22,735 nt of DNA from positions 1 through 22,735 of the IMG/VR virus record IMGVR_UViG_3300021378_000176; one strand, 5' to 3'. The notes beneath the pieces were generated by a model that did no database searches, was not told where the DNA came from, and saw nothing but the letters and a program-made list of their open reading frames with translations. Below are positions 10,688-22,725 of this stretch, piece by piece. A program made the position numbers and the translations under genes. Source of the DNA: a virus. Position 1 is the first letter of the stretch. Every line of letters starts with the position of its first letter.

Positions 10688-13600
10688 ATGGCGACAACAT
10701 TCACAGAAACCAGTTTAGCAACCACATATAAAGATGATTTTCGTGATAGTGATAACTATCATAGAATATTATTCAATACAGGTGTTGGATTACAAGCAAG
10801 AGAGTTAACACAACTTCAAACGATATTGCAAAGTCAAATAGAAAGATTTGGTAATAACGTATTTAAAGAAGGTGCTGTAGTAAAACCAGGCGGAGTAAAT
10901 GTAAATCCTCAATATGAATTTATAAAACTCGATACAACTGATCCATCGCATGTTTTACCAACAGATATAACAACACTTGTAGGTAAAACTGTAACAGGGC
11001 AAACTTCATCAATAGTTGCAACAATACTAGAAGTGGTTGCTGCAGTAGGCAGTGATCCTGCAACTCTTTATGTTAAGTACACAAACACAAGTTCAGCTCA
11101 AGGCAGCACTGATGTTGTAACACAACGAATGTCTGGTAACGAAGTAATGGATGTGTCAGACGGAACTGATTTAAAAGTAAAACTTTCTACAATAGCAGAT
11201 CCATCAACTGGAAAAGGAACACAAGTTACGGCTTTAGGCGGTATATATTATGTAAGAGGTAATTTTGTATTAACTCAAGATCAATCTAAGATAATATCAA
11301 AATATACTGATATACCAGATACTGATATCGGATTTAAAACAGTTGAAGACGTTGTAACTGCAAGTGATAACAATGCATTATACGATAATCAAGGAAGTGT
11401 TCCGAATGTTTCTGCTCCAGGCGCTGATAGATATCGTATAACGCTTACAATAGCTGAACGTAGTGAAATGACATCAAGTGATAACTTTGTTCATGTTGCA
11501 ACAATTAAAAAAGGTCAGATATATAGTGCAGTTGCCACAACAAATTCATATAATATACCTAATGAACTTATTGCAAAGAGAATAGAAGAGAATTCTGGTG
11601 ATTATATAGTCAAACCTTTCTCTGCTAGATTTGACTTAGATTCACAAAACACACATTTACTTTTAAATGTTAGTGACGGTGTTGCAGTGGTTAGAGGTTT
11701 TAGATCAATTGTAACAAAACCTTCAACCTTTAGAATAACAAAACCAGCTGTAACGACCACTGTAAACAACGAACCAGTGGGTGCAACTCATGGAGCATAT
11801 GTATTTGTAGATGTGGCACATAGCGGTTTAGGAAAAACAAAAGGTATACCAAACTTCAATCAATTAGAAGAAATGAATTTAAGATCAGCTGTCACGCATG
11901 GTGGAAGTACAATTGGTACAGCACGAGTTAAAGCAATAACTAAAAGTGGTACTAATTTAAAAATGCATCTCATAGATATTAATCTTAATTCTGGCGAAGT
12001 TTTTAGAGATGTCAAAAGTATAGGCACATCTACTAGTAACTTTTTTAATATTACACTTGAAAACTCTAAAGGTGTACTAAAAGAACCTTATGAAAAATAT
12101 AATTTTTTCTCATTACCTAATCCAAGGCCTACAGCTCTATCAGATTTAACTTACACAGCTCAAAGAAGATTTCCAACTCTGTCTGCAAATGGTTCGGGTG
12201 TAGTAACACTTACGGGATTAACAACAGCTGGAGAAATTTATACACAGACAGGTGATTTTGTTTTTGCAAAGGCAGATAGTGATGTATCGGCAGCTACACC
12301 TTCATATTCTTTAACACCTAGTGCTTCAGCACCAACAGGTGGTACTGCAAACTTTGGAACAGCTGCAGATGTTGCAACTATTTCAAGTTCTTCTAATATA
12401 GAACTCGCAGCATTTGTAAGTAAAACACAAACAACTCCTAAAACTAAAACATTGACAAATATGACTTTAACAAATACTGTTGAATCAGATGGTGCAGGTT
12501 TTAAATTTGTTAATATGAAACGTGCAGATATTTATGAAGTAGATGAAATTGTTAATGCATCTGACAGTAATGAAAGCTATGCAACGAGGTTTATTGTTGA
12601 CAACGGTCAACGCCCATCACATTATGATGTTGGTAGACTAATATTAAGATCAGGTCAATCGGCGCCGTCTGGAAGTGTTTCTATGAAATACAAATTCTTT
12701 GATCCAACTGGCGGTGGAGATTACTTTTCTGTAAATTCGTATGCTGGTCAAGTTGATTATGATAAAATACCTAATTATAATTTAGGTGGAGGCCAGTTAA
12801 TAAATTTAAGAGATGTCATAGATTTTAGGTCAGTATCAGATTCTGCTGGAAACTTTAATACCAGTGGTGCAACTATGTTAGAAACTCCTCAAGATGGAAG
12901 CACTATAACTGCAGATGTTACTTACAATTTAGCTACTCCAGCAAAACTAGTCATAGATAAAAACTCAAAATTAGATTTTGTATTCGGAGCTCCTGGATTT
13001 AATCCGATTTTGCCTGTAACTCCAGATGGTAGTTTACCATTATATGATATAATAATGAATCCTGGTGTACTAAATGATTCTGACGTGTCTTTATCAAAAT
13101 ACAATTTTAAAAGATTTACTATGAAAGATATAGGTAAATTAGAAAACAGAGTAGAGAGACTTGAAGAAACAACTACATTAAATTTATTAGAAACTGATAC
13201 TAAATATTTACAAGTTTTAGATTCTTCTGGAAATGATAGAACTAAGAGTGGCTTTTTTGTAGATGCATTTAAAGATCATCGCGGTGCAGAAATGTCAGTG
13301 CCGTATGAATATAGAGCTTCAACTGATTTTACAAATCGAGTAGTAAGGCCTATGACAAGACATGATCAAATACGATTAACATATGATTCAGCATCATCTA
13401 CTAACACTATAAAAAGAGGTGATAACGTTTATATAAAGTATGATCAAAGTGAATACATAAATCAGACAACAGCAAGTAAAGCTGTTAAAGTTAATCCGTT
13501 TTCAGTTACTATATATGAAGGAACAATTACACTGTCACCTTCTTCTGATGAATGGAGAGATGTAGAAAGAGTTCCTGACAAGATAATTCAAGGAGGCACT

Positions 13601-14902
13601 CTTATTTCACCTATACCCGCTTATCAATTTAATGATCACATCGCAAACTGGGCTGGAAATAGTGGTAAAGATGCTGTTCCTGCAGTTGCAACTGGAGAAA
13701 CGTTGTTGAATATAGTAAATGATAGAATTATTGAAACTACAACAGCAAATTTTATGAGATCAAGAAAAGTTTATTTTAGAGCTGAAGGTTTAAGACCTAA
13801 TACACGAGTATTTACTTTCTTAGACGGAGTCAATATTACAAGCTTAACAAACGGTGGCGGCGGTCCTACTTTGTTCCAACATTATTCAGACACAGATTCT
13901 GATTTTGGTAATACACTAAGTGATGTAACAATACACCCATCAGGATCTTCAACACTCGTTACAGATGCAAATGGAACAGTTTCTGGATCATTTATAGTGC
14001 CAAACAATGATACAACTAGAATACGAACTGGAACTAGAGAATTTAAAGTGTTAGATATAAGTGTAGACAAAGAGACTGATGCTGCAGCAATGGCTTCAAC
14101 TAACTACACTTCGCAAGGGTTTTTAGACACTAAACAAGCTACATATGAGTCTACTCGAGTCATAGTGCAAACTGGAGGTTTAATATCATATAACGAGGGT
14201 GGAGACCATAAATCACCAGTCACTGATGATTGGGGTGTTAACTTAGCTACAGCCGTAGTGAGTTTAGGCTTAATTGATCAACAATTTAGCAATTATGCTG
14301 ATGCAAATGGATATGGGCTAAACTATACCGATCCAGCACCAAAATCTGGGTACCTGTCACACTCAAATGCAATCAATGCAATCAATAACGCCATTGCATC
14401 TAAAGTAGGTGTGCACTTAGGTATACCTACCTATACTAATAATAATCAAGACGATGGTCCTGGCGGCGGCATGAATGGTGATGAACACGGTTATACTGAT
14501 GATAACGGTTATGGTGTGGCATGTCTATTAGAAGATATGTTAGTAATGTTGAATGGTGTGTTATCGACAGTGGTAAATGTTAAAGTAGGAGATATTGTTT
14601 CTGGAAGCTTAGTGACAGAGGTTATGCAAAAACACATGAGAAATGCTTATTACATAATTAATAATGAATTAAAAATAACTAATGATCACCCTGTTTTAAC
14701 TAACTTAGGTTGGAAGAGAACAGAAGAGGTTGAAATTGGTAACTATATAAATGGCGTAAAAGTAGAAACCATAGATTTTATTGAAAAAATTATTCCTACA
14801 GTTTATATAGGAACAACTAATGAAAGCTTTGATGTGTATTGTAACAATAACATTTACACAGTTCATGGCCAATATAAACAATTATTAAAAAAGGCGAGTT
14901 AA
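10688..14902 (+). CDS. Large virion structural protein, DUF4815-type, with C-terminal Hint domain (1404 aa)
   Basis: The start has AGGA at 10677-10680. The N-terminus (TTFTETSLATTYKDDFRDSDNYHRILFNTGVGLQARELTQLQTILQSQIERFG) is the signature of the DUF4815 family of large tail/baseplate-peripheral proteins in marine T4-like phages. At about residues 810-840 a short coiled coil (MKDIGKLENRVERLEETTTLNLLETDT) is also typical. After about residue 1190 come a fibre-like segment, then a Gly/Asp/Asn-rich linker (GGGMNGDEHGYTDDNGYG). A 126-residue Hint domain begins at Cys1279 and is annotated separately. The family usually continues into a domain containing P-[IL]-A-Q-[ST]-F; here that domain is encoded by the next gene, so the protein seems to be split at the Hint domain. 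The exact virion location is unknown; neighbours suggest the outer baseplate or fibre base. Confidence 0.85.
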   Translation: MATTFTETSLATTYKDDFRDSDNYHRILFNTGVGLQARELTQLQTILQSQIERFGNNVFKEGAVVKPGGVNVNPQYEFIKLDTTDPSHVLPTDITTLVGKTVTGQTSSIVATILEVVAAVGSDPATLYVKYTNTSSAQGSTDVVTQRMSGNEVMDVSDGTDLKVKLSTIADPSTGKGTQVTALGGIYYVRGNFVLTQDQSKIISKYTDIPDTDIGFKTVEDVVTASDNNALYDNQGSVPNVSAPGADRYRITLTIAERSEMTSSDNFVHVATIKKGQIYSAVATTNSYNIPNELIAKRIEENSGDYIVKPFSARFDLDSQNTHLLLNVSDGVAVVRGFRSIVTKPSTFRITKPAVTTTVNNEPVGATHGAYVFVDVAHSGLGKTKGIPNFNQLEEMNLRSAVTHGGSTIGTARVKAITKSGTNLKMHLIDINLNSGEVFRDVKSIGTSTSNFFNITLENSKGVLKEPYEKYNFFSLPNPRPTALSDLTYTAQRRFPTLSANGSGVVTLTGLTTAGEIYTQTGDFVFAKADSDVSAATPSYSLTPSASAPTGGTANFGTAADVATISSSSNIELAAFVSKTQTTPKTKTLTNMTLTNTVESDGAGFKFVNMKRADIYEVDEIVNASDSNESYATRFIVDNGQRPSHYDVGRLILRSGQSAPSGSVSMKYKFFDPTGGGDYFSVNSYAGQVDYDKIPNYNLGGGQLINLRDVIDFRSVSDSAGNFNTSGATMLETPQDGSTITADVTYNLATPAKLVIDKNSKLDFVFGAPGFNPILPVTPDGSLPLYDIIMNPGVLNDSDVSLSKYNFKRFTMKDIGKLENRVERLEETTTLNLLETDTKYLQVLDSSGNDRTKSGFFVDAFKDHRGAEMSVPYEYRASTDFTNRVVRPMTRHDQIRLTYDSASSTNTIKRGDNVYIKYDQSEYINQTTASKAVKVNPFSVTIYEGTITLSPSSDEWRDVERVPDKIIQGGTLISPIPAYQFNDHIANWAGNSGKDAVPAVATGETLLNIVNDRIIETTTANFMRSRKVYFRAEGLRPNTRVFTFLDGVNITSLTNGGGGPTLFQHYSDTDSDFGNTLSDVTIHPSGSSTLVTDANGTVSGSFIVPNNDTTRIRTGTREFKVLDISVDKETDAAAMASTNYTSQGFLDTKQATYESTRVIVQTGGLISYNEGGDHKSPVTDDWGVNLATAVVSLGLIDQQFSNYADANGYGLNYTDPAPKSGYLSHSNAINAINNAIASKVGVHLGIPTYTNNNQDDGPGGGMNGDEHGYTDDNGYGVACLLEDMLVMLNGVLSTVVNVKVGDIVSGSLVTEVMQKHMRNAYYIINNELKITNDHPVLTNLGWKRTEEVEIGNYINGVKVETIDFIEKIIPTVYIGTTNESFDVYCNNNIYTVHGQYKQLLKKAS
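14522..14899 (+). other. Hint (intein/hedgehog-type autoprocessing) domain, residues 1279-1404 of the DUF4815 protein
   Basis: The domain begins CLLEDMLVMLNGVLSTVVNV-KVGDIV, matching the Hint pattern of a nucleophilic Cys followed by D-x-x-V and K-V-G-D. Block-B-like T-x-x-H is present as ITNDHPVLTNLGWKRTEEVEIGNYI (Thr1331, His1334). The last block is SFDVYCNNNIYTVHGQYKQLL. By hand alignment the terminal His-Asn of true inteins is absent, and only a few residues follow. There is no endonuclease domain. Known Hint domains with Cys1 and T-x-x-H perform an N-to-S acyl shift, giving cleavage or ester transfer at the upstream bond (Ala1278-Cys1279). Activity here is inferred, and full splicing is unlikely. 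Confidence 0.75.
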
Positions 14903-14905
14903 AAT

Positions 14906-16489
14906 ATGTCAGTAACATCAACCGGATATAGAGTTGGAAAGCAACCAATAGCTCAATCGTTTTACATCGATGATCCTGCAGGAATTTATTGCACTAAAGT
15001 AGATTTATTTTTTAAAGCAGCTGATGAAAACGCTCCGATACAAGTACAAATTAGGCCTATGGTTAATGGGTTTCCTTCATCGAACACTATAATCCCAGGA
15101 ACTATAAAATCATTACCGGGTAGTACGTTTTCAGGTGGAGCAAGTATATCTGCAGATGCTACTACAGCAACTACATTTGAATTTGATGAGCCTACGTATT
15201 TGAAAGGATTAAATGAATATGCATTAGTAGTCATAGCAGATTCAAAAGATTATGAAATTTATATAGCTGAAATTAATGATTTTGTAGTAGGTTCTACAGA
15301 GAAGCGTGTAAATAAACAACCTGTATTAGGAAGTTTATTCTATTCACAAAATGGCTCAACATTCACTCCTTCACAAAATCAAGATTTAACTTTTAAAATA
15401 TATCAAGCAAAATTTAAACATTCAACTGCGACTATAGCATTACATAATGCGCCAGTTCCTAAGCAACTACTTAATCCAAATCCTTTAAAAACTATTTCAA
15501 CATCGCAAACAGTAAGAGTGACTCATGCTAATCATGGTATGCAAGTTGGTCAACCTATAACTTTATCTGGTGTTGATTCTGCAGGTGTAGGCGGAATATC
15601 TGCTTCAACATTAAATCAGCGTCATACTATTACAGCAATTGATCACACTGGTTATACTTTCACATCAGATTCTGCTGCAGATTCAGATGCTTTCGGTGGA
15701 GGAACTATTATTCAATCTACTAAAAATATATTGTATAATAACATATATCCATCAATAGCTGCGTTAATACCTGCAGGCCAGCAATTTAATGCTAGTGTTA
15801 AAACTACTACCGGAAAATCTTACGCAGGAATTGAGACAGCATTTCAAAAACAATCATCATTTGAATCTGTGCAAATTAATGAAAACAATACTAAAAGTAC
15901 TTTAATGATGATAGCTCATGACAGTGCTGAAACAAGTGATATTGGTGCTGGAATAAAGTCTCTAGATTTTAATATTTCAATAGTAAATGCTGATTCTAAT
16001 ATGGCACCTATGTTAGATTTACAAAGAACTTCTGTAGGACTAATAAGTAATATAATTGACAAACAAAATGAAACTATATTAGATAATCACAATGTTCCAT
16101 TAGCATATGTAGACGAAACTTCAGCGAGAGGTGGAAGCAGTGCAGCTAAACATTTAACTAAGACAATAGTTTTAAATGAAGAAGCTGTAGGATTAAAAGT
16201 ATTGTTGTCTGCTAACAGACCATCGACTGCTGATTTTCAAGTTTATTTTAGAACAGCTGATGCCGATACTTCTATAGTGACACAAAATTTTATCTTAGCA
16301 TCTCAAGAAACAGTTATTCCAACTGATGAAAACCCTAGCATTTTTAGAGAATACACGTATCTTATAGGAGGCCAAGGCGGAGATATAGCAGCATTTACTA
16401 AATTTCAATTAAAAATAGTATTTAGAAGTACTAACCAAGCACTTGTTCCATCAATATCTTCATTACGCGCTATAGCATTGAGCGCGTAA
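14906..16489 (+). CDS. Virion structural protein, apparent C-terminal half of the DUF4815-type tail protein (527 aa)
   Basis: It begins only three bases after the previous stop, with an AAGGCGAG purine run about 11 bases upstream. Residues about 10-170 form a domain I know from large marine myovirus tail proteins: GKQPIAQSFYIDD, TKVDLFFKAAD, VQIRPMVNGFPSS, TTFEFDEPTYLKGLNEYALVVIADSKDY and VNKQPVLGSLFYSQNGSTFTPSQNQDLTFKIYQAKF. In relatives this domain is, to my recollection, in the same polypeptide as DUF4815 and contains the motif DPLAQ[ST]F. The rest is beta-rich with no clear family. It presumably assembles with the 1404-residue protein at the baseplate periphery. The last codons, with unusually GC-rich CGC GCT and AGC GCG, form one arm and part of the other arm of a 13-bp hairpin. 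Confidence 0.75.
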   Translation: MSVTSTGYRVGKQPIAQSFYIDDPAGIYCTKVDLFFKAADENAPIQVQIRPMVNGFPSSNTIIPGTIKSLPGSTFSGGASISADATTATTFEFDEPTYLKGLNEYALVVIADSKDYEIYIAEINDFVVGSTEKRVNKQPVLGSLFYSQNGSTFTPSQNQDLTFKIYQAKFKHSTATIALHNAPVPKQLLNPNPLKTISTSQTVRVTHANHGMQVGQPITLSGVDSAGVGGISASTLNQRHTITAIDHTGYTFTSDSAADSDAFGGGTIIQSTKNILYNNIYPSIAALIPAGQQFNASVKTTTGKSYAGIETAFQKQSSFESVQINENNTKSTLMMIAHDSAETSDIGAGIKSLDFNISIVNADSNMAPMLDLQRTSVGLISNIIDKQNETILDNHNVPLAYVDETSARGGSSAAKHLTKTIVLNEEAVGLKVLLSANRPSTADFQVYFRTADADTSIVTQNFILASQETVIPTDENPSIFREYTYLIGGQGGDIAAFTKFQLKIVFRSTNQALVPSISSLRAIALSA

Positions 16490-18226: not shown

Positions 18227-18706
18227 ATGGCAATCCCTGGACATGAATTTGTAAGAGCACATTTTTCAAATAACGAAAGAACAATAGTTGAATCGTTTTG
18301 GACTGATGGGAAAGTAGAAAGAGTTGAATACATTGAAGCTAAAGAAGGTGATCCTAATTTTGAAAATCTATTAACTCATATTGATATTGATAACTTGCAC
18401 GAAGCAACGTACAAACATATTAGAGAACAGCATGAAGCATTTGAAGATACTGTTATCACACTGGCAAAAGATAGAGGATTAATATACGATTTTAATGAGC
18501 AACACACTGATGTTCATAAAGCTTTAGCTCAATTTTTATTTAATGAGTTTGACGCAGAAAGAGATAAAGAAAAACTATTTCTTTACAAACTGCAATTATT
18601 CGAGACACCTGCTATTAAAAAATCTACAAAGGCAAGTAAGAAAAAAGAATTGAGACAAGCAAAGACTATTAAAGAAGCCACATTAATCGCGTTGTCTATG
18701 AGTTAA
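18227..18706 (+). CDS. Conserved phage protein of unknown function (159 aa)
   Basis: A strong ribosome binding site (AAGGAG) precedes the ATG at 18227. The sequence is mixed alpha/beta in the first half (FVRAHFSNNERTIVESFWTDGKVERVEYIEAKEGDP). It becomes helical and charged later, with a Lys-rich tail (KKSTKASKKKELRQAK). Similar small proteins follow fibre genes in marine T4-like phages, but no role is known. It is the last rightward gene of the unit, and its final 24 bases overlap the end of the leftward radical SAM gene. Confidence 0.6.
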   Translation: MAIPGHEFVRAHFSNNERTIVESFWTDGKVERVEYIEAKEGDPNFENLLTHIDIDNLHEATYKHIREQHEAFEDTVITLAKDRGLIYDFNEQHTDVHKALAQFLFNEFDAERDKEKLFLYKLQLFETPAIKKSTKASKKKELRQAKTIKEATLIALSMS

Positions 18707-19828
18707 TCTAAACTGGCCTTCTTTATACTTATTTGAACAGCTGTAAACACAGTTTCTTATTGGATTCTCAGATTGTATTACGTAAGGTAACTCTTTCCAC
18801 CAATCATTTTTTAGTATATCTTCTAATTTATTTTCATAAATATTGTTATTATAATCGTAATACTTTCGAGCAAAAGGGTGTTGCTTCATCCAGCTTTTCT
18901 TGTTCATAACAGAAAAGTTTCCAAAAAAACAACACGGCCAGACGTTTCCATCAAAATTAATATTTAACGTATTAGTTAACGACCAGCCACAAGTTGGTTT
19001 ATTATCTAAATCTGCTATTGTAGTTCTGTTTATTTGAGCTCCACGTTTTTTAAATTCATCTGTCCAATCTTCAGTCACTTTATTTAAACTTAGTTTTGTG
19101 TTGTTCTCATCGTAAAAAGTGTATACGTTACGATTTTCAACTTGTGGATCGTCTTCACCAAACCTATCACTTATAACTGACGAATGTTTTTCAGCTCCGT
19201 GTTCTTTACATAACTTAGTAATTTCTTCTAAGTAGTCTTGATTGTGCTTAAATAATACGGTCTGAGTTTCAACTAGAACTGTTTCTTTAAACTCGGAACA
19301 TATCTTTACGTGGTCTAACACTTTTTGTAGATTAGTATTTCTTCTATAAAGACCGTGCATATCTTGATCGATACCATCTACTGCAAAAACAATGTGTAGT
19401 CTTTTACTATGATATCGTGATTTATGTTTTATCGCCAAAGAACAAAGTTTCCACCAATATAATTCATCTCTCATGCTTCCATTAGTGTTTATAGTAACTA
19501 TTATACGCCAACTAGAACTTAAGAAATGTTCCACAATCTCAGCAGCGTGAGGATGCATCATGTGATCTCCCCATGTAGGACAAAGTTGTATAGAATGATA
19601 TTTTAATAGTTCTTGTTGAGTAAACGTCTTTTTTATTTTTTCAAAAGGCACGTGTATCAATGGAAGTTCTTTTATTACATTCCCAGTAAAAGATAACTTT
19701 GCGCCTTCAGTAGAGTTTATTCTATGACATTGAGGACATTTTGCGTTACAATACGTCGTTGTGTCTAAAACTATATTATAATATGGTCTCCAACTTTTAA
19801 ATTTACTTGAGTCTAGAGATTGTTTCAT
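18683..19828 (-). CDS. Radical SAM enzyme with SPASM/twitch-like C-terminus (381 aa)
   Basis: The radical SAM cluster motif CX3CX2C is at Cys27, Cys31 and Cys34 (CNAKCPQC), following the TTTYCN strand. The C-terminal region has Cys280, then G294-x4-Cys299 with Cys300 (FDGNVWPCC), then Cys360 and Cys364. This is an abbreviated SPASM/twitch pattern able to hold an auxiliary iron-sulfur cluster. Such enzymes generate a 5'-deoxyadenosyl radical and often modify peptides or proteins, though some act on sugars or nucleotides. The substrate here is unknown. The ATG at 19828 has AAGGA five bases upstream on the minus strand. It overlaps the upstream glycosyltransferase by 26 bases and is the distal gene of the leftward operon. 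No precursor-peptide gene is visible nearby. Confidence 0.85.
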   Translation of the reverse strand: MKQSLDSSKFKSWRPYYNIVLDTTTYCNAKCPQCHRINSTEGAKLSFTGNVIKELPLIHVPFEKIKKTFTQQELLKYHSIQLCPTWGDHMMHPHAAEIVEHFLSSSWRIIVTINTNGSMRDELYWWKLCSLAIKHKSRYHSKRLHIVFAVDGIDQDMHGLYRRNTNLQKVLDHVKICSEFKETVLVETQTVLFKHNQDYLEEITKLCKEHGAEKHSSVISDRFGEDDPQVENRNVYTFYDENNTKLSLNKVTEDWTDEFKKRGAQINRTTIADLDNKPTCGWSLTNTLNINFDGNVWPCCFFGNFSVMNKKSWMKQHPFARKYYDYNNNIYENKLEDILKNDWWKELPYVIQSENPIRNCVYSCSNKYKEGQFRLTHRQRD

Positions 19829-20600
19829 GAAAATCCTTATTTACTTGGTGTATTAAATGTACGCCAGACGTTACTTTAGTTACGATATCGTCTAAAATAT
19901 AATTCCATTGTATTCCTATATTATTAAAATCTATGTTGTATCTTTCTAAAAGATAAGAAAGATAAACTTCATTATTTTTTATCCACGCTTTTGACATTAA
20001 CTCTGGATATAAATTATCGTTAATAGCAATACTTAATTTTTTATTCATATCATTCATTCTTTCTGTAAAAGATAGTTCTTCTGCAGATTTTTTATTTGCG
20101 CATACTACACCAGTGTTGACAATATTTTCATTTCCAATTATATCGTCTATCATCAACATGGCGTTCTTAGCACAAACTTTAGAATACATCATCATAGGAG
20201 AAATACATTTTTTATCTTTAGTAGTTTCTGATATGTGCTTTATGGTTTCCCTATTATTTATTTTTACAGTATAATCGTACACGCCAATTTTATTAAAGTT
20301 AAAACTTTTAAATATATTTTTTTTAGTAATAGGAACTATATCCATGTCAAAATATACTACGTTGTCATAGTACTTAGTAAGTTCTTCAAGCTTAAATATC
20401 TTATCGAACTGAACGTTCGTGTAATCTGTTGACTTAGGCGTAAATACTTCATAATCAGCTTTACAAAAGTATGCATAATTCTTTTGCAATTCAATTAACT
20501 TTTCTTTGTATTTTTTAATTGATTCTTTTTTATAATCATTTACAGATGAATGTTGTTCTGTTAAATCTGACCATATACTATAAATGATATTTTTTGGCAT
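19803..20600 (-). CDS. GT-A-type glycosyltransferase, second tandem copy (265 aa)
   Basis: I place the start at the ATG at 20600 (MPKNIIYSIWSDL), 23 bases inside the previous gene, because the upstream in-frame residues look like out-of-frame coding sequence of that gene. A nucleotide-sugar-binding fold is suggested by the DxD motif at residues 85-87 (YFDMDIVPI), then NTGVVCANKK and the closing VHLIHQVNKDF. These features match GT8/GT32-like transferases acting on sugar nucleotides with a divalent metal. It parallels the neighbouring gene throughout (IDFDVVPL, YNTGIVLANK, VHAINKNF), so the two are diverged tandem duplicates. The acceptor is unknown. Confidence 0.75.
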   Translation of the reverse strand: MPKNIIYSIWSDLTEQHSSVNDYKKESIKKYKEKLIELQKNYAYFCKADYEVFTPKSTDYTNVQFDKIFKLEELTKYYDNVVYFDMDIVPITKKNIFKSFNFNKIGVYDYTVKINNRETIKHISETTKDKKCISPMMMYSKVCAKNAMLMIDDIIGNENIVNTGVVCANKKSAEELSFTERMNDMNKKLSIAINDNLYPELMSKAWIKNNEVYLSYLLERYNIDFNNIGIQWNYILDDIVTKVTSGVHLIHQVNKDFHETISRLK

Positions 20601-21477
20601 ATGCTTTAATAAATTTAAAATTCTTGTTAATTGCGTGCACGAATTTAGTTTCTTTAGGTATATAATTAATTTTTTTTCTGTAAGGAAAATGCCAAACATC
20701 ATCTAGTTCTATTAAGTTGACATTATTAATTTTCATCTTAAAGCTAAATAATGTTTCGTTATCGTATCCAAAACAATTTTGTATAAACTTAGGCCAAAAT
20801 CCTTCTTCATTTTTTATTCTGTGCATAAATTCTAAGGTGTCATTAAAATTTTTAAAATAATTTAATTTTTTTAAATTATCTTTATTCGCTAAAACAATTC
20901 CAGTATTATATACATCATTGTTACCACTTAGTCCTTCTTCCATTAGTAAAGCTCTACAGTTCCAATATTTAGCTTTAGGATCTCGTTCAGAAAAAGTTCT
21001 ACCAGTTTTTAAAAAAGCTTTCTCTCTTTCTTTAATAATCTTAGGACTTAAGAAAGTCAAATAACTTTCTGGATTTCTTTCATGATTAACTTTGCAAGCA
21101 ATACCATTTGCAACGTCTATGTTGTCAAAAATATTATCTTGAGTTAATGGCACTACATCAAAATCAATGTACAGTATTTCATCATAAGTTTTGCATAAAT
21201 CATACATGATATGTATTTTATAAAAATTAATTATATTGTACTTAGAGATAAAAGGATAATTATCTTCAAAGTGTTTTCTGTAAGCTCTCCACTTCTCGTC
21301 GTCTTCATATAATATATAGGTTATACCTAATTTACGAGCGTAGTTCTCTTGTTTATGTTTTAAAAAATTATAATTGTTTTTAAATTCATTTTTATTTTTA
21401 ATATTTTTTTGATAATCATGATCTTCCTCAAAGTCATCATTATTAAAATCTATGTAAATGCTAAATATAACTCTCAT
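20578..21477 (-). CDS. GT-A-type glycosyltransferase, first tandem copy (299 aa)
   Basis: The ATG at 21477 overlaps the methyltransferase stop as ATGA. After an N-terminal strand (RVIFSIYID) come a helix-rich region and the metal-binding DxD motif at residues 105-107 (YIDFDVVPLTQDNIF). These are followed by YNTGIVLANKDNL and a C-terminal FVHAINKNFKFI. Its composition is strongly Asn/Lys/Ile-rich, more AT-biased than the tail genes. It likely transfers a sugar from a nucleotide donor to a virion protein, a phage or host glycan, or DNA; the sequence does not say which. It is the paralogue of the downstream gene. Confidence 0.78.
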   Translation of the reverse strand: MRVIFSIYIDFNNDDFEEDHDYQKNIKNKNEFKNNYNFLKHKQENYARKLGITYILYEDDEKWRAYRKHFEDNYPFISKYNIINFYKIHIMYDLCKTYDEILYIDFDVVPLTQDNIFDNIDVANGIACKVNHERNPESYLTFLSPKIIKEREKAFLKTGRTFSERDPKAKYWNCRALLMEEGLSGNNDVYNTGIVLANKDNLKKLNYFKNFNDTLEFMHRIKNEEGFWPKFIQNCFGYDNETLFSFKMKINNVNLIELDDVWHFPYRKKINYIPKETKFVHAINKNFKFIKAYAKKYHL

Positions 21478-22118
21478 TTGCCGATTATCATAAATCTATC
21501 GTATTCATCTTTGTGTCTCTTTGTTCCAGAATATAATACGTTTTTTAAAGAAATGCTTTTTATAAAATCTTCTAAATTATCTTTACAGTTAATATGGCTA
21601 TCAACTTCATAATAATTATTAGATTGTAAACAAACTATCATGTTTGGATGTTTTTGTTGTAAAACAAAAGATAGTTCTTCATCGTCTATGTGTTCGCACG
21701 CTGTGCACACGAGTATTCTATCATAATAATTATGATTTAAAAAGTCTTCTAAACCATCTATTGTTTTAAAATGAATATTATCGTGCATCCTTAATTTTCG
21801 CGCAATCTTATTACAAACTTCATCTAATTCTATGTTAAGTATTTTATTTTTAAATCCAGATTCAGCGAACAAATGTGAGAACAAACCATACCAGCTTCCT
21901 ATTACCACGCATTCTTTGTATTCACTGTCAATTAACTTATTTAATTCTTCTACTGCCCACACTTTATTCATAATTTGACCCTCACTAAAAGAATCGAGTA
22001 CATCTTTAAGTCTAAATAAATCGCCTCCAAAAGATTCTTTATCGTAAGTTGTCGTAGTATAGATGTCAGTTATAATATTAAGTATCTTTCGATACATCGA
22101 TGGTGTTATATATTCCAT
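21474..22118 (-). CDS. Class I SAM-dependent methyltransferase-like protein (214 aa)
   Basis: A Rossmann methyltransferase motif I is seen as CVVIGSWYGLFSHLF (about residues 70-84 from this start), followed by an acidic second strand ILNIELDE. A later motif (YYDRILVCTACEHIDDEELSFVL) matches the strand-IV region of class I methyltransferases. I chose the ATG at 22118, with GGAG about 10 bases upstream. A TTG at 22166 and ATGs at 22148 and 22097 are alternatives; all overlap the previous gene. The stop overlaps the next start as ATGA. Together with the glycosyltransferases it could methylate a sugar, but no specificity can be read. Confidence 0.7.
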   Translation of the reverse strand: MEYITPSMYRKILNIITDIYTTTTYDKESFGGDLFRLKDVLDSFSEGQIMNKVWAVEELNKLIDSEYKECVVIGSWYGLFSHLFAESGFKNKILNIELDEVCNKIARKLRMHDNIHFKTIDGLEDFLNHNYYDRILVCTACEHIDDEELSFVLQQKHPNMIVCLQSNNYYEVDSHINCKDNLEDFIKSISLKNVLYSGTKRHKDEYDRFMIIGK

Positions 22119-22629
22119 TGTCAAAGTTTCTCCACTGTATCTTTTCATGCCAAAAAAATCTGTCAATTCCTTTATATTTTCGTGTATGGTAATCTATGTT
22201 TTTACTAAAGATATTCCAAATATAAGAATTTTGTTTAGACGTCCAAGCAAGAACTGAGCTATTTAATTCTGTATCATATGCATGCTCGCTAAAGAACTTA
22301 TCTTTTTTCCAACCGTCTCTCATGAATGTAGGGTAGTTCCAGTCAATATTGTTTATATATGGGAATGGATCGGAAAGTATTTTGATATCTAGATCAAATA
22401 ATACGCACTTACCTTCTATTTCAAAGTCTTCTCTAAATAAATGCATTTTATTCCACCACCTCATAAGTTTAGGTTTCTTTGGAATGTCAATGCAATCTAT
22501 AATTACATTTGTTTTATCTTCAGTGAAACAATAAAAATTTGCAGAAGTATAATCTTTTAGAGAATGATAAATTTCATTTACATCATCAGCACTATATTTA
22601 GTACCGTGTTTTAATAATATAATATTCAT
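22078..22629 (-). CDS. Small glycosyltransferase-like protein, first gene of the leftward operon (183 aa)
   Basis: The start is taken at the ATG at 22629, where MNIILLKHGTKYSADDVNEIYHSL forms a typical first strand and helix. Upstream in-frame residues overlap the promoters and the opposite leader and are unlikely to be coding. The pattern NFYCFTEDK, KLMRWWNKMHLF, CVLFDLDIKIL (DxD at residues 79-81), SSVLAW and IDRFFWHEK is that of a phage glycosyltransferase family with a GT-A fold. No ribosome binding site precedes this ATG. A late promoter octamer ends six bases before it, suggesting a leaderless message. Confidence 0.72.
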   Translation of the reverse strand: MNIILLKHGTKYSADDVNEIYHSLKDYTSANFYCFTEDKTNVIIDCIDIPKKPKLMRWWNKMHLFREDFEIEGKCVLFDLDIKILSDPFPYINNIDWNYPTFMRDGWKKDKFFSEHAYDTELNSSVLAWTSKQNSYIWNIFSKNIDYHTRKYKGIDRFFWHEKIQWRNFDNGIYNTIDVSKDT

Positions 22630-22634
22630 AAATT

Positions 22635-22642
22635 TATTTATA
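22635..22642 (-). promoter_or_regulatory. Leftward T4-type late promoter of the sugar/radical SAM cassette
   Basis: TATAAATA reads on the minus strand from 22642 to 22635, the only such octamer I found in that orientation. The late start point, about 5-7 bases downstream, would coincide with the ATG at 22629. This would make the cassette a late transcript with little or no leader. Confidence 0.6.
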
Positions 22643-22663
22643 ACACTTATAAAACTTAATTTG

Positions 22664-22671
22664 TATAAATA
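22664..22671 (+). promoter_or_regulatory. Rightward T4-type late promoter before the next structural gene
   Basis: GTATAAATAG occurs here as at the two other rightward late promoters. It lies 21 bases from, and back to back with, the leftward octamer. Expected transcription from about 22677 gives a roughly 49-base leader before the ATG at 22726. Confidence 0.75.
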
Positions 22672-22685
22672 GTTTAAAATGGCAG

Positions 22686-22699
22686 GGGCGATATCGTCC
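22686..22699 (+). promoter_or_regulatory. Possible leader hairpin in a GC-rich 5' untranslated region
   Basis: Bases 22686-22690 (GGGCG) can pair with 22695-22699 (CGTCC) around an ATAT loop, with one G-U pair. The leader from 22681 to 22700 is clearly richer in G+C than the surroundings. Such a stem near the 5' end could stabilise the message. The evidence is structural only. Confidence 0.35.
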
Positions 22700-22725
22700 G
22701 ACAAAGAAATCAACCGGAGTATTTC

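Follow-up and report, generated by a model that had tools for sequence, protein, structure and literature searches.

Hint modules at the break of split VrlC baseplate genes in marine phages suggest a possible self-cleavage step in the completion of some virions

Known Hint systems and the VrlC locus

In phages, Hint domains are known chiefly from terminases, polymerases and reductases, where they are selfish inteins, and in Hedgehog the Hint thioester is passed to cholesterol. B-type BILs possess every intein motif but the C-terminal one and are cleaved at their N-terminus (PMC7765530). C-terminal Hint-like domains on bacterial proteins were noted in 2008, and the C-terminal motifs of Vint domains are weak or absent (PMC2362128), as they are in the domain described here. 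The fold and the chemistry are already known, and the NCTB tail protein BN7874_136 (LT598654) is an earlier annotated C-terminal Hint on a phage tail protein. VrlC is reported to be part of two-layered baseplates and to replace T4 gp7 in marine T4-like phages (PMC7029224). No paper on Hint cassettes at split baseplate genes was found in a literature searched mostly outside subscription journals.

The window is the whole stretch of DNA analysed, 22,735 nt from an uncultured marine virus with a bacterial host (IMG/VR record IMGVR_UViG_3300021378_000176). In it, the 126 C-terminal residues of a large baseplate protein form a Hint module, here called type 1. The features of the locus are as follows.

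10688..14902, + strand: VrlC N-part, a DUF4815 / phrog_358 baseplate protein of 1404 aa with the Hint at its end
14228..14521, + strand: variable linker, residues ~1181-1278, Gly/Asp/Asn/Ser-rich toward its end, last residue Ala1278
14522..14899, + strand: type-1 Hint domain, residues 1279-1404, final domain of the ORF (AF2, Foldseek, Pfam Vint/Intein_splicing)
14522..14524, + strand: Cys1279, predicted N-S acyl shift nucleophile by its invariance; predicted cleavage point Ala1278/Cys1279
14678..14689, + strand: block B, T1331-N-D-H1334, invariant in 32/32 members and also kept in the distant L208
14828..14869, + strand: block F-like FDV...YTVHG, residues 1381-1394, with His-Asn absent afterwards
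14906..16489, + strand: VrlC C-part, a separate 527-aa ORF that begins 3 nt past the Hint stop codon

The N-part ORF closes with ...DDNGYGVA-CLLEDMLVML...VKVGD...KITNDHPVL...FDVYCNNNIYTVHGQYKQLLKKAS-stop, and its translation bears out all of the motif positions of the original prediction: Cys1279, KVGD (residues 1299-1302), TNDH (1331-1334), FDV (1381-1383) and VHG (1392-1394). The same prediction had held that a terminal His-Asn and an endonuclease are lacking, which is true of the module in the window and of every type-1 member. The 1404-aa ORF has no intein C-terminal His-Asn, +1 nucleophile or C-extein, its terminus being VHGQYKQLLKKAS-stop; the module is 126 aa only, with no homing endonuclease and nothing further in the ORF; and a terminal His-Asn, C-extein or endonuclease occurs in no type-1 member.

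The module resembles B-type BILs in its Hint fold, N-terminal Cys, block B Thr/His and lack of both a C-terminal motif and an endonuclease; in a motif test blocks A, B and F-like were kept and block G was absent. The variable context is also alike, since modules are swapped at the slot and linker amino acid identity between contigs is 50-79%, versus 93-98% for the Hint. Unlike B-type BILs, whose likeness to it is judged here by motifs, the module is always the last domain of virion proteins, has no C-flank and only a predicted activity, and is common to unrelated phage structural genes. Hedgehog Hog shares a C-terminal Hint and the first N-S shift alone, but its sterol/adduct recognition region is absent here, where nothing follows the Hint. 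Class 1 and class 3 inteins (gp41-1, mycobacterial DnaB) are the closest folds by Foldseek, yet the module has no His-Asn, C-extein or endonuclease and, unlike class 3, it has Cys1. BN7874_136, the only phage-collection sequence match with a depositor-named intein domain (E 9e-3), is likewise a virion protein with a Gly-rich linker and a C-terminal Hint, but it is a collagen-like tail fibre and its Hint is larger, with Ile-His-Asn near the end.

Fold and conservation of the type-1 module

Scanned alone, the window sequence matched Pfam Intein_splicing (PF14890) at E 0.0022 and Vint at E 0.045, with bit scores of 18 versus 35.8 and 14 versus 27, respectively; both lie under the curated cut-offs, which are sensitivity thresholds and no biological feature. 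Because these single-sequence matches are weak, the motif reading needed independent support. The best PDB match by phmmer was the Mtu RecA intein, at only E ~0.4, and no Hint model was matched in an NCBIfam scan. Among 33 distinct type-1 family members, however, Vint matches 22 (best E 5e-7) and Intein_splicing 15, and in the PDB the family profile scores best against 8r2c, a Vint domain from Tetrahymena (E 0.046). Vint is thus the family's best match both in Pfam and among PDB sequence profiles, but Vint domains belong to eukaryotic proteins with VWA and Vwaint, whereas DUF4815 lies upstream here, and no PDB E-value is below 0.04. A match to an IF-2 model may reflect an intein inside that model, and Hsp82 matches of the family profile in the PDB look like chance.

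An AF2 model of residues 1279-1404 built from 38 sequences reached pLDDT 91.3 and pTM 0.84; one built from three near-identical sequences (pLDDT 37) was set aside. The larger alignment contains HintA rows and may be biased toward Hint, but the type-1-only family still matches Vint by profile. All 48 Foldseek matches above noise in the PDB are intein, BIL, Hedgehog or Vint structures, with TM to ~0.76, and a structure search of viral models returned proteins named Hint among the top matches. The motif order VGD..TxxH[PV]..[FY]D[VL] arose in none of 200,000 shuffles of the 126 residues. As modelled, residues 1279-1404 are a genuine Hint superfamily fold. The original prediction had looked to profile searches and structure prediction for a Hint signal; the former give it weakly for the window and more strongly in relatives, and the latter gives it confidently. 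Fold, family profiles and the VrlC/DUF4815 match likewise uphold its placing of the Hint as the C-terminal end of a baseplate protein.

About 37 further IMG/VR contigs carry the type-1 module, nearly always exactly 126 aa long and at 53-98% identity. Although the search patterns that gathered this family did not include Cys1, all 32 distinct members keep Cys1 (C1279), T53 (T1331), H56 (H1334) and some 40 further residues without variation. Block F D104 (D1382) is Asp or Asn. The VHG His, which had been put forward as a Hint hallmark, did not hold up: one distinct sequence (contigs L187/L190) has Tyr in place of H115 (H1393), and a residue that varies in this way is not a catalytic hallmark. 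In every member, those on unrelated carriers included, the Hint is the last domain of the ORF, behind a flexible linker. Pairwise comparison of the window with two close contigs gave a Hint dN/dS of ~0.06-0.09, and the module is under purifying selection. In the same contigs the Hint also has less synonymous divergence than the sequence on either side of it, as though it were exchanged as a block.

Split VrlC genes and exchange of modules

The 1404-aa ORF matches Pfam DUF4815 (E 1.6e-47) and phrog_358 (E 5.6e-222, profile positions 577-1394 of 2056), and ORF 14906-16489 matches phrog_358 from profile position 1421 onward (E 6.7e-113). Since the profile continues into the next ORF, the Hint sits at the break of a normally continuous VrlC. 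Gene order, with a gp6-like gene and other baseplate genes upstream, fits a VrlC baseplate protein. The two parts are a single ORF in C48C1, HTVC008M and Mosig; in the T4-like marine phages HTVC008M and C48C1 the homologous VrlC/DUF4815 carrier is thus one ORF without a Hint, as against two ORFs and a Hint here. The original prediction was right that the carrier is a baseplate protein but missed that it is the VrlC N-part only, with the C-part in the next ORF.

Among non-redundant relatives of the C-part, 48 VrlCs are fused, none of them with a module, and 39 are split, and these counts give an association rather than a frequency, because the Hint-bearing split VrlCs were partly collected by Hint-based searches. 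The split set comprises 14 with a type-1 Hint, 11 with a type-2 Hint, five with an HCCTA.. tail, two with an ICTA.. tail and seven that are bare. All 25 Hint-bearing VrlCs are two ORFs, and the 48 one-ORF VrlCs are without Hint. Tails of the HCCTA.. kind (L015, L019, L023, L025, L029) and of the YICTA.. kind (L020, L021, L024) lie upstream of the VrlC C-part and, as in Hints, have a Cys start behind a Gly-rich linker; neither has a Pfam, PHROG or confident NCBIfam match.

The type-1 Hint is a mobile C-terminal cassette, a property overlooked by the original prediction. On the C-part tree the type-1 label needs seven changes, at least four of them forced by well-supported branches. L101 (type 2, split) groups with the fused HTVC008M, both on long branches, and splitting with a Hint therefore probably arose more than once. 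The carriers of split VrlC are myophages, but seventeen distinct type-1 modules reside in podovirus-like phages on a head-module protein unrelated to VrlC, whose gene lies between a portal-like one (phrog_332/1216) and a gene upstream of the major head protein. The VrlC versions in L183 and L189 group with this podovirus-like Hint set (98/100), which means that the domain has passed from one virion protein to another, unrelated one. A third type of carrier is the 650-aa ORF of L208 (2414-4363), which matches a protease PHROG (phrog_3677) and bears a distant type-1 Hint.

In L013, which lacks the Hint, the N-part closes with ...NDDTTSTAEDF-stop; this is one residue before the position of Cys1 in L203 and L176, in which the residues before Cys1 are ...NDDTSSTAEDFA|C and ...NDDTTSSAEDFV|C, respectively. 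The L013 N-part is a natural Hint-less protein with nearly the end expected from the predicted cleavage. A terminus at the junction favours simple removal of the Hint, and shows that a covalent anchor is not required in every phage of the clade.

Type-2 Hints, CF(L/I)xGT...TDYF, are ~140 aa long, are unlike type 1 in sequence and occur on many different phage proteins.

Type-2 loci: L089-L168, e.g. L026:5522-5983, L116:5416-5880
Contigs with tandem Hints: L102, L103, L109, L111, L113, L119, L131, L132, L151, L165, L168

In 80 type-2 loci Cys1 is present in all, the block B His in 79, a Gly preceding Cys1 in 77 and a His-Asn in none. Proteins of the tandem contigs have a first Hint ending Val-His-Asn and, directly behind it, a C-terminal type-2 Hint, a layout that recalls BIL arrays. 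In 67 of 74 cases type 2 is followed by a conserved small gene (phrog_17252), which usually overlaps its end. Profile tests do not support an identification of this gene as a GNAT acetyltransferase (Pfam Acetyltransf_1 at E 0.025 in just 2/19; no PDB match), and where relatives of the small gene occur in cultured phages of Tenacibaculum and Cellulophaga, no neighbouring gene is annotated as an intein or Hint.

Searches of 50,697 phage records with type-1 and type-2 queries yielded nothing significant, the window query retrieving only NCTB (E 9e-3) and one weak match; a metagenomic view is therefore needed to see the Hint family. In 84,980 species genomes the one match is a VrlC-bearing phage contig within a MAG. 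This contig (L222, NZKY01000163.1, from a MAG labelled Opitutia) has the same VrlC-Hint-C-part arrangement, and is probably either misbinned or a phage of that host.

Predicted autocleavage and its alternatives

We consider it probable that the module is an active, B-type-BIL-like Hint that serves as a removable end-piece of the VrlC N-part by autocleavage at its own N-terminus. After translation, Cys1279 would attack the Ala1278 carbonyl in an N-S acyl shift assisted by T1331 and H1334, yielding a thioester. Splicing could not follow, because the terminal Asn and the C-extein are absent. Attack of water (or a small nucleophile) on the thioester would be the simplest resolution: it would set free a Hint of 14 kDa, and the remaining VrlC residues 1-1278 would end in a flexible tail rich in Gly and Asp. 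The C-part, translated separately from the next ORF, would join the baseplate non-covalently. We infer the cleavage, its timing and the agent that resolves the thioester from the sequence, in which the predicted requirements for the acyl shift at Ala1278/Cys1279 are all kept and selected and those for C-terminal cleavage or splicing are all absent. Acyl-shift parts kept and C-terminal parts absent match the published description of B-type BILs (PMC7765530). Weighing against active cleavage are the window profile scores below the Pfam cut-offs and the Asp to Asn change of block F in some members.

The chemistry would be identical up to the thioester if the latter were instead passed, as in Hedgehog, to a specific acceptor (a virion protein, glycan, lipid or host surface molecule) that becomes a covalent anchor or modification. 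The long flexible tail before Cys1, the invariance of H38, R40 and other non-core residues, and the pairing of type 2 with its small gene (67/74) all speak for such a transfer, which we nevertheless hold to be unlikely: there is no adduct-recognition region, the ORF ending ~11 residues or fewer past the last predicted strand; type 1 is without a conserved partner gene; and Hint-less relatives with the same split VrlC exist. Slightly less likely still is the broader idea that the exchangeable cassettes are a general tagging device, converting unrelated virion C-termini to thioesters for a covalent acceptor, with the small type-2 gene as helper. It is improbable, too, that the module is a non-cleaving structural or binding unit on a tether, one among alternative C-terminal decorations. 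The VrlC slot does hold Cys-starting modules without a recognised Hint motif, presumably structural or binding, or nothing at all, but Cys and His are never lost in 32 type-1 members, and Cys is kept in 80/80 of type 2 despite the different sequence.

An intein that invaded VrlC, lost its C-terminal block and is now decaying, the gene having been rescued by a stop and a new start, could account for a Hint placed exactly at the VrlC break and for L101 as a separate split beside HTVC008M-like fused VrlC. This history is very unlikely, given that the module has the same length and end point in two unrelated carriers, the strong purifying selection with a conserved C-terminal strand, the repeated gain or loss on the VrlC tree and the split VrlCs that lack any Hint. 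Scarcely likely at all is capture of the N-part thioester by the N-terminus of the C-part, restoring one long VrlC. The two parts are adjacent here and continuous in other phages, and residue 2 of the window C-part is Ser, but that residue varies among type-1 carriers (Ala 8, Ser 4, Thr 1, Pro 1) and Hint-less split relatives start similarly, which makes re-ligation unlikely; the podovirus-like carriers, moreover, have no C-part. By eye, there is no C-intein at the start of ORF 14906-16489, which begins MSVTSTGYRVGKQPIAQSF. A pretoxin HINT releasing a C-terminal toxin has a negligible chance of being correct: PT-HINT domains are in the same superfamily, but the reading was ruled out, as nothing follows the Hint in the ORF of any type-1 member. 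Assignment as a class 3 intein was also ruled out, as Cys1 is present and many members have Thr instead of the Cys near block F.

The Hints described here look like resident, selected parts of virion proteins, not selfish inteins; they look like cassettes that different marine phages exchange among baseplate and head proteins, and their presence goes together with the splitting of a conserved baseplate gene. Should they cleave, phage assembly would include a C-terminal maturation step by autoproteolysis, with no protease required, and the family is a source of many small candidate N-cleaving Hints.

Elsewhere in the window, the product of a minus-strand gene (18683-19828) combines radical SAM and SPASM domains (Pfam E 1.7e-6 and 3.5e-5). 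Four minus-strand ORFs without a Pfam match (19803-22713) adjoin it; two of these have DxD-like motifs and are perhaps glycosyltransferases.
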